A DNA stretch of 36,060 bases from Deltaproteobacteria bacterium (GCA_031264465.1 JAISDX010000135.1:1-36060); one strand, 5' to 3'. Positions 3,537 to 30,603 are shown, numbered from the stretch's first letter. Numbers and translations are program-made. The notes: generated by a model not told the origin, from the sequence alone.

Positions 3537-3687
3537 ATCAATAAATCCGTATATGCTGTTTTGTTAAAAAGGGTTTACTATGCCAAAATCGTAATGTCCA
3601 GCACTATTTGGGTTTTGTCCACAAAAAACGTGATAAACCGGCACCTGAAAAGGAAAAAAAGGCGTTCGGGTCCGGTGCGGAAAATTA

Positions 3688-3716
3688 TTTTTTTCCGCTT
3701 TCAAGTCGGCTATAGT
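3688..3716 (+). promoter_or_regulatory. Possible weak promoter for the peptidase-like gene
   Basis: TATAGT (3711-3716) is a good -10 match, but the hexamer 17 bases upstream is only a T run (TTTTTT). It lies about 50 bases before the chosen ATG, in the 229-bp region between divergent genes. The call rests mostly on the -10 element. Confidence 0.25.
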
Positions 3717-3765
3717 GAGCGGAGCGAACCCGGACTCCGCGCACCCGAACACTGCGAACGTAAAC

Positions 3766-4623
3766 ATGAAAGCATACCACCAGGGACAACTGGATTTTTG
3801 CTGCGCCATTTACGCCTTCATCAACGCTCTCAAGCTGGTGGCCGGTTTCGGCTTGGCCGACGGGCGGCGCATCCTCGGGGAAACGTTGCGGGAAATTTCC
3901 GCCCGCCCGGCCCTGTGGGAGCCGTTTCTTGACAACAATACCGACCACTACTGGGTGGTCCGTTATCTTTTGGGCCGCTATTGCCGCAGCGGGCGCTTCG
4001 CCTGCCGGGCCGCCTTTTTGCCGCAGGCTCCCCTGGACGGGGCGGAACGGCGCGAATTGCGCCGGCAACGGGAGCAGGGAGAGCATTCGCTGAAGCTTTA
4101 CGGGGCTACCGACCACGAACTGGGCATCTGGCTTGGCCTGCACACGCCCGAGGAATTGGACCTGGATACGCTGGAGCGCGATATCCTTTACCGGCGCGAA
4201 AGCGGCGAGGCCGGCCAGTCCGGCCAGCCCGGGCGCATGTGCCCCAGCGAGCGGGAGCTGCGCTGGCCAATGGAAGAACTCTGGCCGCTTTTGCAAAGCT
4301 GGCTGCCGTTGCGGCGCCTGTTCGGCGGGCTGAGCGGCTTCGGCCCGCCCGGCGCGCCCGGCGGAGAAGGCGGCCAGCAAACACGTTGCCTGTTGCTGCG
4401 CTTCCACCGCTACCTATACATGGAAACCCTCCCGGTGGTTTCGCACTGGAGCACCGGGCGCGAGTTTGCCGGCGACGTGCTGCATCTTTTTGACTGCACG
4501 GCCGACAAAGAGGCCATCCACAGCCTGTCGTTCCGGGAAACAGCCGCCAGCCCCGCGCAACTGGGCGCGGGCCGGCTGCTGCAACTGGAGCCGGATTCCC
4601 TGGTGTTTATAGAAAAAGTTTGA
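3766..4623 (+). CDS. Papain-like (C39-like) putative cysteine peptidase
   Basis: The 285-residue protein is not one I can name. Its start, YHQGQLDFCCAIYAFINAL (Q6/Q8, C12/C13), fits the oxyanion-hole Gln and nucleophile Cys of papain-like or C39-like cysteine peptidases. Near the C-terminus VVSHW (H227), then HLFDCT (D243), fits the catalytic His and Asp. The order Q-C-H-D is what this fold requires. There is no signal peptide, no TM segment and no ABC-transporter domain, so it looks like a free-standing cytoplasmic enzyme. The middle (roughly residues 70-205) is rich in Glu, Arg, Gly and Pro and has no recognised motif. The ATG at 3766 was preferred to an upstream GTG at 3715 because the catalytic region follows it at once; no good ribosome-binding site supports either. 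It converges on the PLP-fold gene with no gap. Confidence 0.6.
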   Translation: MKAYHQGQLDFCCAIYAFINALKLVAGFGLADGRRILGETLREISARPALWEPFLDNNTDHYWVVRYLLGRYCRSGRFACRAAFLPQAPLDGAERRELRRQREQGEHSLKLYGATDHELGIWLGLHTPEELDLDTLERDILYRRESGEAGQSGQPGRMCPSERELRWPMEELWPLLQSWLPLRRLFGGLSGFGPPGAPGGEGGQQTRCLLLRFHRYLYMETLPVVSHWSTGREFAGDVLHLFDCTADKEAIHSLSFRETAASPAQLGAGRLLQLEPDSLVFIEKV

Positions 4624-24257: not shown

Positions 24258-24278
24258 AACGCTTCAAGCGTGAAGCGC
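24258..24278 (+). repeat. Stop-codon-adjacent stem-loop repeat (copy 2)
   Basis: Directly after the TAG of the TPR gene, CGCTTCA and TGAAGCG form a 7-bp stem around the loop AGCG. There is no T run, so it is not a standard terminator. The 12-base core TTCAAGCGTGAA occurs again at 29598. Confidence 0.6.
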
Positions 24279-24299
24279 TCCCGCGGAATGGATTTGGAC

Positions 24300-25724
<1,425 letters not shown>

Positions 25725-26779: not shown

Positions 26780-29074
26780 TTGAAAAGATCTCTGCCCGCG
26801 CAATTTTTGCTGGGCGCGTTCATTTCCGTGTCGGTCTTGCTGCTGGCCGCTGTGTTCCTGGAAGCAAACCGAGACCGCGCCGTCCTGCTGCGCCAGTTTG
26901 ACCGCACGGCCAGGCGTAACGCCTCCCTGCTCCTGCACTCCATCGAACAGCCTATGGCGCGCGGCGACGACGCCGGCACGGCCGCCGAGTTCGGCAAAAT
27001 CGCCGAAAAATTTCCCGGCCTGCATTTCTCCATCGCCTCGTTCAACGGTCTGATTACCTATTCCACCCGGCCGTCCGAAATCAGGGCCCGGGTGGAAGAG
27101 GCGCACTCCGGCAGCCTTGGCCGGAGCTACCTGGACGCGCTGGACGGGCGCTTTTCCGGCCCGGACGGAGCCGCGGCCGGGCAATCCGGCGGGCAGACCG
27201 AAAACGGGGTGTTTACCAGGCTGATCAAAAAAGACGGACGCAACCAGGTCATGCTGCTGGCCCCCATCGACAACCGGCCCGAATGCTACCATTGCCACGG
27301 CTGGACGCAGCCGGTGCTGGGCGCGGCCGCCCTGTTCACGGACGTGGAGGAGGAGCTTGCCGCCTTCAGCCGGCAGAGCCTGGCTCTGGGCGGCTACGCG
27401 CTGATCTTGGCCGGTTTTGTCACGGGCGTTCTTTATTTTTTCATGCGCCGCCGCTTTTTCCGGCGCCTGGATCTCCTGACTGCGCGGGCCGGGCGCATCT
27501 CGGACTGGGAAGAGGCGCCGGTTGAAGCCGCCGGCTCCGGCGCGGAACAGGCCAAAGACCCGGCTGCGGCGGACCCGCTGGATCATGCCAGCCAGAGCCT
27601 GGAAAAAGTCTCCCGGGTTATGGAACATCTGGATTTTCTGGAAAGCGTGCTGGAGTCGCTCCCCCTGGCCGTGGCGGTTTGCAACGTGCAGGGCCGGGTC
27701 GCCTTTGTCAGCCGGGCTTTCATTAACCTCCTGGGGAAAAGCGGCGAAACGCGCGAAGCTCTCCTGGGACGTCCCCTGGCCGAGTTGGTTTACGGCCAGC
27801 CGCACGCCCAGTCCGTGTTCGCCCGGATGCTGCGCGACAAGTCCGCCAATGCGGGCCAGGGCCTGGAGGAAAGCCTGACCGCGCCGGGCGGGGAAAAGTT
27901 GCGGCTGCGCCTGGACGCGGCCCTGGTTTACGCCGGCTCGGCCATGCCGGGCGCGCCGCTTACCCGCATGCGGCCGGAAATTATCGGCCAGCCGGAACTT
28001 ATGGGAATATTGTGTATTTTTCGGGAAATATCCGTAGAAAAACGCGCCCGCGCAGCCCTGGAAGCGCGCGAAGCCGAACTGCGTGAGCTGTATTGCAACG
28101 CCGGCCTGATTCTGGCCAAGCTGCGCGAGGCCGCGTCCGCCTTGGCTGGGCGCCTGGAACAGGCGCGTGAGGCCGCGGCCGGGCAGCAGGCGGAGGGCCG
28201 CTCGGAAGTGCCGGCCCTTCAGCGCTTGGGCGCCGTCCTGAACAAACTGGCCGGGCATTGGAGCGAGTTTATGGAACAGACCCGGCAGCGGCGGCAGGCG
28301 GCCCAGGCCGGCAACGAGGATTTGCGCGCCCTGGGCGAGGCCGTGCAGCAGTTGGGCCGCACCGTGCTGCGTTTCCGGGAGGAGGCCGGAGCTCTGGAAG
28401 AATGCGGGCGCGCCTTTATCGATAAAGCGCAGTCCAGCCGGGAAGTGGCCGACCAAATTAACCTGATGGCTCTGGATGCGGCCCTGGAGGCCGCCGCCGC
28501 CGGCATCAGCCCGCTGAGCGCCTCCGGAGCGCGGGCCTGGAAGAAGGCGGAGGAAGGCGCCACGGAAGTGCTCGCCCTGTTCGGCGGCGAAGCGCGCCGG
28601 GGGCGGCCGCGCGCGGGCGGGAGCCCGGCCGCCAACCTGGCGGCGGCGGCCGTGCTGGGTGCTCTGGTGGACCGCTTGCGCGCCCTGGCCGACGTCTCCG
28701 GCCAGGCGGCGGAAGAGCTGAAAAAAGGACTGCTCGTCCTGAGCGAGCGCGGCAAAAACAGCCGGGAAGCGGCCGAGGCTTCAGCCGGGCACATGGACGA
28801 GGTTATCCGCCTGTTGCTCAGCGGCGATGAAAATTTTTTCAGGCGGATGGCACAGTTGGACGCCCTGCTGGCCAAAGGGGCCGAGGTGGAAGCCGAGCTT
28901 CAGGAGCGACTGGCCAAGGGCGAAGTCCTTGACCGCGAAGCCGCCGGGAACGGCGCCATGGCTCAGCGGACCCTGCAAGCCATACAAAGCGCCGAGGCGT
29001 CCGCCGCCGCCCTCCTGAACGTGATTGACCGGATGGAGGAAGTGTTCTCCATGGGCCGGGGGGTGGAAAAATGA
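26780..29074 (+). CDS. Membrane sensor with periplasmic haem-c site, PAS domain and degenerate chemoreceptor domain
   Basis: The 764-residue protein starts at TTG; no other start fits between the upstream in-frame stop and here, and AGGGG is six bases upstream. TM1 is about 8-28 and TM2 about 202-222. The periplasmic domain between them carries one CxxCH haem-c motif, CYHCH (residues 169-173), just before TM2. A PAS domain follows at about 286-420, then a long Ala/Glu/Arg-rich coiled coil. VADQINLMALDAALEAAAAG (556-575) plainly descends from the chemoreceptor tip, but the expected AARAGE and GRGFAVVA residues that contact CheA/CheW are absent. A c-type haem redox/oxygen sensor of this type is known in Desulfovibrio (DcrA). 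This one may signal by another route. It overlaps the tetrahaem cytochrome gene by ATGA. Confidence 0.85.
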   Translation: MKRSLPAQFLLGAFISVSVLLLAAVFLEANRDRAVLLRQFDRTARRNASLLLHSIEQPMARGDDAGTAAEFGKIAEKFPGLHFSIASFNGLITYSTRPSEIRARVEEAHSGSLGRSYLDALDGRFSGPDGAAAGQSGGQTENGVFTRLIKKDGRNQVMLLAPIDNRPECYHCHGWTQPVLGAAALFTDVEEELAAFSRQSLALGGYALILAGFVTGVLYFFMRRRFFRRLDLLTARAGRISDWEEAPVEAAGSGAEQAKDPAAADPLDHASQSLEKVSRVMEHLDFLESVLESLPLAVAVCNVQGRVAFVSRAFINLLGKSGETREALLGRPLAELVYGQPHAQSVFARMLRDKSANAGQGLEESLTAPGGEKLRLRLDAALVYAGSAMPGAPLTRMRPEIIGQPELMGILCIFREISVEKRARAALEAREAELRELYCNAGLILAKLREAASALAGRLEQAREAAAGQQAEGRSEVPALQRLGAVLNKLAGHWSEFMEQTRQRRQAAQAGNEDLRALGEAVQQLGRTVLRFREEAGALEECGRAFIDKAQSSREVADQINLMALDAALEAAAAGISPLSASGARAWKKAEEGATEVLALFGGEARRGRPRAGGSPAANLAAAAVLGALVDRLRALADVSGQAAEELKKGLLVLSERGKNSREAAEASAGHMDEVIRLLLSGDENFFRRMAQLDALLAKGAEVEAELQERLAKGEVLDREAAGNGAMAQRTLQAIQSAEASAAALLNVIDRMEEVFSMGRGVEK

Positions 29075-29592
29075 AGCATTGGCTGCCGTCAGGCGTGGCC
29101 TTCTGCGCCCTGAACCTGATTCTGATCTTCAGTCTGGCGCCGGGAGCCGGAGCGGCGGCCGGCTATGTCGGTTCCGCCACCTGCGGCTCCTGCCACCAGG
29201 GAGAATACCGGGTGTTCCAGAGCGCTTCCAAAAAGGCCCATACCCGCCGCCAGGTGGAAAAACTGCTGCCCAAGCTCAGCGGCGAGGAGCAGACCACCTG
29301 CTTTAGCTGTCACGCCACCGGCTACGGCAAGCCGGGCGGCTTTGTCAGCTACGCCCAAACCCCGGAACTGGGCGATATCGGCTGCGAGACCTGCCATGGG
29401 CCGGGGGCGGCCCACGTTGCTTTGCAGCGGCGCGATGCCGACACGGAAGCGGAAGTTGCGGAAACGGGCGAGTCGAGTGGCGCGGCGGTCATCAGCCCGC
29501 TGCTCGTCCGCCGTCCCGCCACGGAAGTTTGCCAGGATTGCCACACGCTGGAGCGCGGCGGGGTACCGCCGCGTTACAGCGGCGCCCATTAG
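29071..29592 (+). CDS. Periplasmic tetrahaem cytochrome c (cytochrome c554-like)
   Basis: A 173-residue secreted protein. An N-terminal signal peptide (hydrophobic about 9-22, likely cleaved near AGAAA, 26-30) is followed by four CxxCH haem-binding motifs: CGSCH (38-42), CFSCH (77-81), CETCH (105-109) and CQDCH (154-158). The spacing, and phrases such as YVGSATCGSCHQGEY and GCETCHGPGAAH, resemble the cytochrome c554 / multihaem family. It should carry electrons in the periplasm. Its ATG overlaps the sensor stop codon (ATGA), so both are made from one message. It is likely a redox partner or reporter for the sensor haem, which is inference. Confidence 0.92.
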   Translation: MKHWLPSGVAFCALNLILIFSLAPGAGAAAGYVGSATCGSCHQGEYRVFQSASKKAHTRRQVEKLLPKLSGEEQTTCFSCHATGYGKPGGFVSYAQTPELGDIGCETCHGPGAAHVALQRRDADTEAEVAETGESSGAAVISPLLVRRPATEVCQDCHTLERGGVPPRYSGAH

Positions 29593-29616
29593 GGCGTTTC
29601 AAGCGTGAAATGCGCC
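29593..29616 (+). repeat. Stop-codon-adjacent stem-loop repeat (copy 3)
   Basis: Directly after the cytochrome TAG. GGCG and CGCC form an outer stem, TTTCA and TGAAA an inner stem, with a two-base bulge and the loop AGCG, the same loop as the copy at 24258. No T run follows. Confidence 0.6.
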
Positions 29617-29643
29617 AGTAACCCTGCCGAAAAGGAGAATGAG

Positions 29644-30603
29644 GTGTTATCCGGAAAGAGAGCCGTTTATTATATGTGCAACAGCGAAGGGCGCCAGGGG
29701 CTGGTTTCCCGCAAGGTCTGGAGCCTCCTGGCGGAAAAGGGCGGCACGGCCGCGGCCGGTTTTTCCTTTCAGGGGGCGGAAGTACTCAAACAGCGGGACG
29801 AGCGGGGCAACGAGTATTATTTCGTGCCCACCGAAGTGCCGGTCTGCCTGGATTATCCAAAATACCTGCCGGAAATGAACGGGCATTTCGGCGCTTTTGA
29901 TATCGCCGGCATGGTCACTTGGCATGAAGGCGGCAGCGCGCCGCCGAAAGTGCTCACCGTCCATTCCATAGGCGACGTCAAGGCCGGGGTTTACGGCCCC
30001 ACCAACCCGGTTTACAGCCGTAATCTGTTGCGCGCCATGGCAAGGGGGCGGGCCGCCTTCGGGCTGGATGAGTACGAAGTTATGACCGAGGCCACGCACT
30101 GGTCCGGCAGCCACGTTTCCGGCACTCCGGCCGAACTGATGCGGCAATTTCCGGTGCCCATGCTGGATATAGAAGTTGGCAGCGCGCCGGGCGGCTGGGA
30201 CAATCCCGAGGCCTGCCGGGCCCTGGCTGAAGCTCTGCTTCAGGTATTTGACAGCGACGAAAAGCGTCTGCGCAATATTTTGTGCCTGGGCGGCACCCAC
30301 TTTGAAGCGAATTTTTCACAGGCGGTGTTCACGGACTGGCAAACGGGCGAGGGCGCCGAGACTTTCGGCGTGTCGCACGTCCTGGCAAACCAGTGGCTGG
30401 TTTCCGGCGAGTATGAGAAGGAGCGCGGCCTGGCTTTTGCCAGCGCGGCGGTCGAGGCCATTGCCGGCGGCATTGAAGCCGTCGCCTTTCACGACAAGCT
30501 GAAAGGCTGCTACAAAGATTTGGCCCGGGCTTTGGGCGAAAAATACGGGGTGCCGATTCTCAAGCACCAGCGGCTCAGGAACCCGGCTGAAATTCAGTGG
30601 TAA
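29644..30603 (+). CDS. DTD2/GEK1-type D-aminoacyl-tRNA deacylase-like protein
   Basis: Proteins of this family (PF04414; archaeal DtdA and plant GEK1) hydrolyse D-amino acids wrongly attached to tRNA. Visible motifs, numbered from GTG 29644 (319 residues): VLTVHSIGD (103-111), TEATHWSG (148-155), MLDIEVGSAPGGWDNPEA (173-190), CLGGTHFEANFS (214-225) and FGVSHVLANQ (241-250). These follow the order of archaeal DTD2 (EATHHGP, EIGSTEEEW, GGGHY, GHI). Several residues differ from the archaeal form, so it is a divergent relative. GGAG six bases before GTG supports this start; an ATG at 29605 would sit inside the repeat element. It is the last gene of a run behind the cytochrome, ended by a strong terminator. 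Confidence 0.78.
   Translation: MLSGKRAVYYMCNSEGRQGLVSRKVWSLLAEKGGTAAAGFSFQGAEVLKQRDERGNEYYFVPTEVPVCLDYPKYLPEMNGHFGAFDIAGMVTWHEGGSAPPKVLTVHSIGDVKAGVYGPTNPVYSRNLLRAMARGRAAFGLDEYEVMTEATHWSGSHVSGTPAELMRQFPVPMLDIEVGSAPGGWDNPEACRALAEALLQVFDSDEKRLRNILCLGGTHFEANFSQAVFTDWQTGEGAETFGVSHVLANQWLVSGEYEKERGLAFASAAVEAIAGGIEAVAFHDKLKGCYKDLARALGEKYGVPILKHQRLRNPAEIQW

Follow-up and report, generated by a model that had tools for sequence, protein, structure and literature searches.

Periplasmic haem-c chemoreceptors have a contested input, for which oxygen, redox potential and diatomic gases have all been argued; DcrA, for instance, is a haem-c MCP that senses oxygen or redox potential. In the stretch of DNA analysed here (36,060 nucleotides from a Deltaproteobacteria bacterium, GCA_031264465.1, JAISDX010000135.1:1-36060; hereafter the window), the gene for a haem-c sensor with a degenerate chemoreceptor tip overlaps the gene for a secreted tetrahaem cytochrome c. 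This arrangement raises the question of whether the pairing with the cytochrome and the loss of the tip belong together, as the first-pass annotation of the sequence had proposed, and of what such a sensor now does.

The sensor and its haem-c domain

The sensor gene is preceded by an AGGGGA-like ribosome site, and the features of its input half are the following.

26780..29074, + strand: haem-c sensor gene, 764 aa, TTG start
26954..26956, + strand: Met59, aligned with Met60 of GSU0935
27284..27298, + strand: CYHCH haem-c attachment motif, residues 169-173, inside an invariant C-x-H-C-H-G block
27626..27931, + strand: cytoplasmic PAS domain, approximately residues 283-384 (Pfam PAS_9)

The order of domains is a first transmembrane helix, a periplasmic haem-c PAS-like domain, a second transmembrane helix, a PAS domain and a degenerate MCP coiled-coil hairpin. 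Hydrophobic segments were found at approximately residues 8-28 and 203-222, and the CxxCH motif lies between these two helices on the periplasmic side, as in haem-c PAS-like sensors. PAS_9 scored 31.6 bits over residues 296-383. An AlphaFold model computed from a two-sequence alignment was discarded as too poor (pLDDT 41.5).

When the single window sequence was compared with the PDB, the sole matches, both weak, were GSU0582 (3b47, E 0.12) and GSU0935 (3b42, E 0.6) of Geobacter sulfurreducens. A profile of the periplasmic region built from 20 family sequences matched the same two proteins (3b42, 4e-5; 3b47, 5e-4), and also two designed helical proteins, the latter through the N-terminal helical part only. 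The profile alignment pairs His173 with His144, the CxxCH histidine of GSU0935, and the Met59 stretch is weak but collinear; according to PMC8396549, Met60 of GSU0935 is the distal haem ligand. These similarities suggest that the window sensor domain carries a covalently attached haem c and that it has the haem-c PAS-like periplasmic domain common to both Geobacter proteins, although its score against PF21563 (13.4-15.1 bits) is under the Pfam cut-off of 27, which four relatives (L069, L073, L082 and L083; L and G numbers are our labels for loci and genomes) do pass.

The same source describes DcrA of Desulfovibrio vulgaris as having a periplasmic c-type haem domain, a cytoplasmic PAS domain without haem and an MCP output. 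Compared with this description, the intact sensors of the family (about 670-690 aa) have the DcrA architecture, whereas the window sensor departs from it in its degenerate tip and in the lack of a recognisable HAMP; it also has a linked cytochrome, of which that description of DcrA in PMC8396549 makes no mention.

A tetrahaem cytochrome gene overlaps the sensor gene

The gene that follows encodes a cytochrome with four haem-attachment motifs.

29071..29592, + strand: secreted cytochrome of the c554 type with four haems, 173 aa, overlapping the sensor gene by ATGA
29182..29196, + strand: haem 1, CGSCH, CxxCH at residue 38
29299..29313, + strand: haem 2, CFSCH, CxxCH at residue 77
29383..29397, + strand: haem 3, CETCH, CxxCH at residue 105
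29530..29544, + strand: haem 4, CQDCH, CxxCH at residue 154

Its N-terminus is signal-peptide-like, and the protein belongs to the c554 type by its four CxxCH motifs and its match to Pfam Cytochrome_C554 (PF13435; 64.9 bits, 1.3e-17, cut-off 20.8). Among PDB entries, cytochrome c554 (1bvb, 4.4e-9) is the nearest in sequence, and the likeness spans the first three haems; however, the window type forms a distinct subfamily, tied to haem-c sensors and marked by an invariant H115 and a C-terminal His. The 61 distinct homologues have four CxxCH motifs and H115 in common, and His is the very last residue in 60 of them, the exception being cut by the end of its locus. In the window cytochrome, H115 and His173 (29587-29589) are the sole near-invariant histidines outside the CxxCH motifs; the C-terminal His, with H115, is therefore likely to be a haem ligand. 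In L003, a relative from the window's genus with an intact tip, the fourth haem motif of the cytochrome (3555-4037) is CX3CH (CVVFCH).

The open reading frames and the Pfam scores of both genes agree with the first-pass description of a two-helix sensor with CxxCH at residues 169-173, a PAS domain and an MCP-like coiled coil, followed through an ATGA overlap by a secreted protein with four CxxCH motifs.

The sensor-cytochrome pair across genomes

We sought conserved pairs in 149 genomes of the family to which the window's genome belongs, and found them. A sensor match was present in 103 of these genomes and a cytochrome match in 93; among the matches listed, 114 of 130 cytochromes adjoin a sensor match (within 2.5 kb, same strand), in 90 of the 149 genomes. 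The cytochrome gene comes first in 109 of these 114 pairs, and the five sensor-first pairs, again among the matches listed, are confined to the window's genus and genus g31, where the genes overlap by 4 nt in the window, L002, L003 and L006, and by 1 nt in L004. The window pair is of the same kind, with adjacent genes on one strand and a cytochrome of this specific subfamily. A search of genome contigs for related loci gave one, L031, whose sensor and cytochrome sequences are the same as those of G063:C98.

In a second sample of 297 genomes drawn across the phylum, haem-c profile matches occurred in 107. Outside the family, a cytochrome was adjacent on the same strand at 23 of the 28 strong haem-c loci (E < 1e-28), in contrast with 3 of the 20 weaker haem-c sensors; the cytochrome therefore belongs to one particular haem-c-domain subfamily. 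Together with the low PF21563 score, this scarcity of adjoining cytochromes among more distant haem-c sensors separates the window sensor from GSU0582 and GSU0935. The outputs found in this subfamily are MCP domains or hybrid histidine kinases with receiver domains, which makes this an input module with exchangeable outputs. Pairs with a hybrid histidine kinase and the same cytochrome were located in other families of the phylum (L065 1643-4345, L068 1909-5229 and L069 2532-5228).

A chance neighbourhood of the two genes is ruled out by the adjacency counts in the family (among the matches listed) and by the difference between strong and weaker loci outside it. The pair, of which the window holds one member, is conserved, ancient and widespread, and probably serves as a redox-input module.

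Eight of the 16 cytochrome homologues that have no listed sensor match were inspected, and some stand alone, such as L087 and L088; in L092 the cytochrome is overlapped by a protein that has both CxxCH and an MCP tip and seems to be a sensor matching more weakly than the listed ones. The stand-alone paralogues at L087 2388-2861 and L090 1830-2573 lie near a response-regulator-like gene, with no adjoining haem-c sensor. A second MCP-like match without a haem domain was observed near the pair in three genomes (G044:C1 389573-390652, G002:C31 184656-186005 and G045:C1 2023413-2024681).

Erosion of the chemoreceptor tip

The output half of the window sensor was compared with that of its relatives, and three segments can be distinguished.

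28445..28504, + strand: ascending end of the MCP hairpin tip, VADQINLMALDAALEAAAAG, in which residues that do not vary among relatives are changed from Asn to Asp and from Arg to Ala
28505..28657, + strand: insert of about 46-51 residues, GC-rich and in frame, replacing the short GDAGRGFAVVA turn of relatives (borders approximate, dependent on the alignment)
28658..29071, + strand: descending arm, recognisable at VDRLRALADVSGQA, then diverged coiled coil (alignment with relatives)

The segment has the same ancestry as the classical MCP signalling domain (PF00015), and the ascending and descending arms can still be recognised on either side of the tip. It differs from that domain in the insert at the turn, in a HAMP that is no longer recognisable and in its MCPsignal score, which at 14.5 bits over residues 554-575 is under the Pfam gathering score of 34.6 bits. 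The canonical CheA/CheW-contacting tip, NAAxEAARAGExGRGFAVVAxEVR, is absent from the window sensor: N561, L562, L565 and E570 are kept in the ascending arm, and the conserved Arg and GRGFAVVA are gone. A frameshift or assembly error hiding the tip was considered and rejected, since the other two frames of 28430-28760 contain no tip motif; independent tip changes in three related genomes also oppose it.

The residues kept at the 40 positions of the tip number 29 in L002, 21 in the window, 16 in L036 and 11 in L006, against 38-40 in relatives outside this clade. MCPsignal gave 96.8 bits for L002, 25.0 for L036 and no match for L006/L031, against 144-188 for four intact relatives, and HAMP fades across the same set (L002, window, L036, L006/L031). 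Of the four clade members, the window, L002 and L036 still have a PAS domain; L006/L031 have neither PAS nor HAMP, and retain the haem domain and the cytochrome. Because L002 is still above the MCPsignal cut-off, the loss of the tip is graded and not clean.

The tip is intact in 27 of the 31 family sensors in which it can be read, L003, of the window's genus, and L004, of genus g31, being among them. Eroded tips were found only in the window (L001), L002, L006/L031 and L036, all in the window's genus, for which the sample consists of only five readable sensors, all from draft genomes, with L036 cut by a contig end. In a tree of the periplasmic region alone, drawn with a midpoint root, the four eroded sensors make up one side of a branch with support 100/99. 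As read from these alignments, the tip was lost later than the pair arose, within a single clade of this genus and separately from the pairing, and the 27 intact tips rule out tip loss as a feature of the pair.

The first-pass annotation was thus right that the MCP-like segment has lost its normal tip, as seen in the 21 of 40 residues kept, the Pfam score and the replaced turn. Its view that pairing and tip loss belong together has to be abandoned, given that an intact MCP tip, or a histidine kinase, nearly always accompanies the cytochrome, L003 being an intact case within the same genus; the tip is not degenerate throughout the homologues of the pair. It had also named intact-tip homologues with separate cytochromes as evidence against its reading: intact tips were indeed found, but the cytochromes are not separate.

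Met occupies position 59 in 18 of the 20 family members compared. L002 and L006 have Leu there instead, as does another eroded relative, L036. Since Leu replaces the distal Met in three of the four clade sensors, the haem switch may be changing too.

Conservation of the input and output regions

Identity within the eroded clade was compared with that among intact pairs, and was 42% against 39% for the periplasmic region and 53% against 52% for the cytochrome, whereas the values for the tip core were 38% against 97% and those for the hairpin 21% against 55%. The frames are open in all four eroded lineages, with end-branch lengths of 0.6-1.4 changes per site. These identities, and open frames at such long branches, suggest that selection continues on the periplasmic pair and has been lost on the kinase contact. 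A periplasmic redox function with the cytochrome is most likely still under selection in the window's lineage. Input and output have thus come apart naturally in this clade: the tip is no longer constrained, sensor and cytochrome are constrained as before, and the clade can therefore reveal whether the haem domain performs a function by itself.

Proposed mechanism and present function

We propose that the secreted tetrahaem cytochrome would connect the cytochrome pool of the periplasm with the sensor's single haem c by electron exchange, and that the redox state and Met/His ligation of this haem would set the conformation of the membrane-anchored PAS-like domain. Redox-linked ligation as the determinant of conformation is taken from the Geobacter domains, as described in PMC8396549. 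In most relatives this conformation would drive an ordinary chemoreceptor hairpin (CheA/CheW), or a hybrid histidine kinase in some of the genomes. Erosion of HAMP and of the kinase-contact tip in the window's lineage has most likely taken the protein out of the chemotaxis array. Since the trimer contacts and the CheA/CheW determinants are located close to the hairpin tip (PMC4692393), there is a further reason to regard the array link as most likely lost.

We therefore consider it likely that the pair is a conserved redox-input module and that the window sensor has no array coupling and keeps its periplasmic redox function. From the comparisons above we infer that cytochrome and sensor exchange electrons, that CheA/CheW are no longer bound and what function remains; the window pair probably works without steering swimming. 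The redox module outside the usual array that the first-pass annotation envisaged survives in part: the haem-c redox-type sensor, the linked tetrahaem cytochrome and a tip unfit for normal CheA/CheW contact stand, but the tie between tip loss and pairing does not, as most family sensors have intact tips (27 of 31).

As to what the remaining function is, we tentatively entertain that the sensor is an electron-transfer protein, in which the membrane-anchored haem docks the cytochrome and the cytoplasmic part is merely a dimerising coiled coil. HAMP and tip have lost the constraint that the periplasmic domain and the cytochrome retain, the Met to which the redox-linked ligand switch is attributed is missing from three of the four clade members, and PAS is dispensable in L006/L031, whose retained haem domain and cytochrome somewhat favour a periplasmic role. 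However, the window protein keeps Met59 and a recognisable PAS domain, which favours continued signalling; a cytoplasmic part of about 540 residues would be costly as a mere anchor, and no quinone site is apparent in an anchor with one haem.

Continued signalling would call for a new partner, to which PAS and the long coiled coil would pass on the redox state, for example a system with the NtrX-type regulator encoded in the window.

24270-25724: NtrX-type sigma-54 response regulator, two genes upstream of the sensor

We regard this as rather unlikely. It is in keeping with the PAS domain retained by three of the four clade members, with a frame that stays open and a long helical C-terminus that persists despite great divergence, and with the order regulator-lipoprotein-sensor-cytochrome kept in G034 and G063. 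This order was not seen in G123, where the regulator is not beside the sensor, and L006/L031 do without PAS and HAMP yet still have the haem domain and the cytochrome. Response regulators, moreover, require a kinase: none was found among the window proteins scanned, as the first-pass annotation had noted, nor beside the NtrX-type regulator.

Ordinary decay, in which a changed lifestyle would have set the receptor on the path to a pseudogene and the window would capture an intermediate stage, seems unlikely. The graded erosion of tip and output domains over L002, the window, L036 and L006/L031, the GC-rich low-complexity insert at the tip and the smaller genome (2.27 Mb) would be expected from it, but frames are open in four lineages at branch lengths of 0.6-1.4, periplasmic and cytochrome identities are not below those of intact pairs, the gene overlap is kept and the genome's other chemoreceptors are intact. 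It is improbable that the odd hairpin still joins the chemotaxis array, perhaps in trimers mixed with normal receptors, since, despite N561, L562, L565 and E570 in its ascending arm and the 29 of 40 tip residues kept by L002, it lacks the conserved Arg and GRGFAVVA, has about 46-51 residues at the turn close to where trimer contacts and CheA/CheW determinants lie (PMC4692393), and scores 14.5 bits in a genome with six canonical tips elsewhere.

Within the preferred reading, that of a redox-input module uncoupled from the array, a more specific scenario can be offered as a conjecture: the clade's chemoreceptor may have turned from a signal transducer into a membrane-anchored periplasmic redox or electron-transfer protein, or into one that conveys redox state to a new partner. 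Selection would have preserved its haem domain and the cytochrome after the loss of the tip and, in one member, of HAMP and PAS as well. DcrA-type haem-c chemoreceptors would then read the redox state of their own, dedicated cytochrome and not a small molecule. That the cytochrome adjoins a well-defined sensor subfamily, across many families of the phylum and with different outputs, suggests electron exchange as the input, and the dedicated cytochrome supplies a protein with which this can be tested. Haem-c chemoreceptors are known (DcrA, GSU0582 and GSU0935), but in the open-access papers searched, which leave out most subscription papers, we found no description of the adjacent tetrahaem cytochrome as the constant partner of one subfamily of them, no paper on a cytochrome-sensor pair, and nothing on tip-less chemoreceptors of this type or on a clade with eroded output.

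Genomic context

The same genome encodes five CheW-domain proteins, one of them with a CheA-sized frame, a flagellin and ten other MCP matches, and all six of these with readable tips are canonical; genome-wide loss of chemotaxis was accordingly rejected as the cause of the erosion. It also encodes c3-type cytochromes and Ccm-type cytochrome-c assembly proteins. The intact-tip pair of G084 occupies a different genomic place. Of the window's other genes, those read have housekeeping roles (MetK, GapA, fructose-bisphosphate aldolase, CstA, an AMP-binding synthetase, PBP1A, and KdsB-like and TrmI-like proteins, the latter a methyltransferase). Between the cytochrome and the TrmI-like gene, at 29605-30603, the window has a D-aminoacyl-tRNA deacylase-like gene (PF04414, 93 bits) that is absent from this place in G034.
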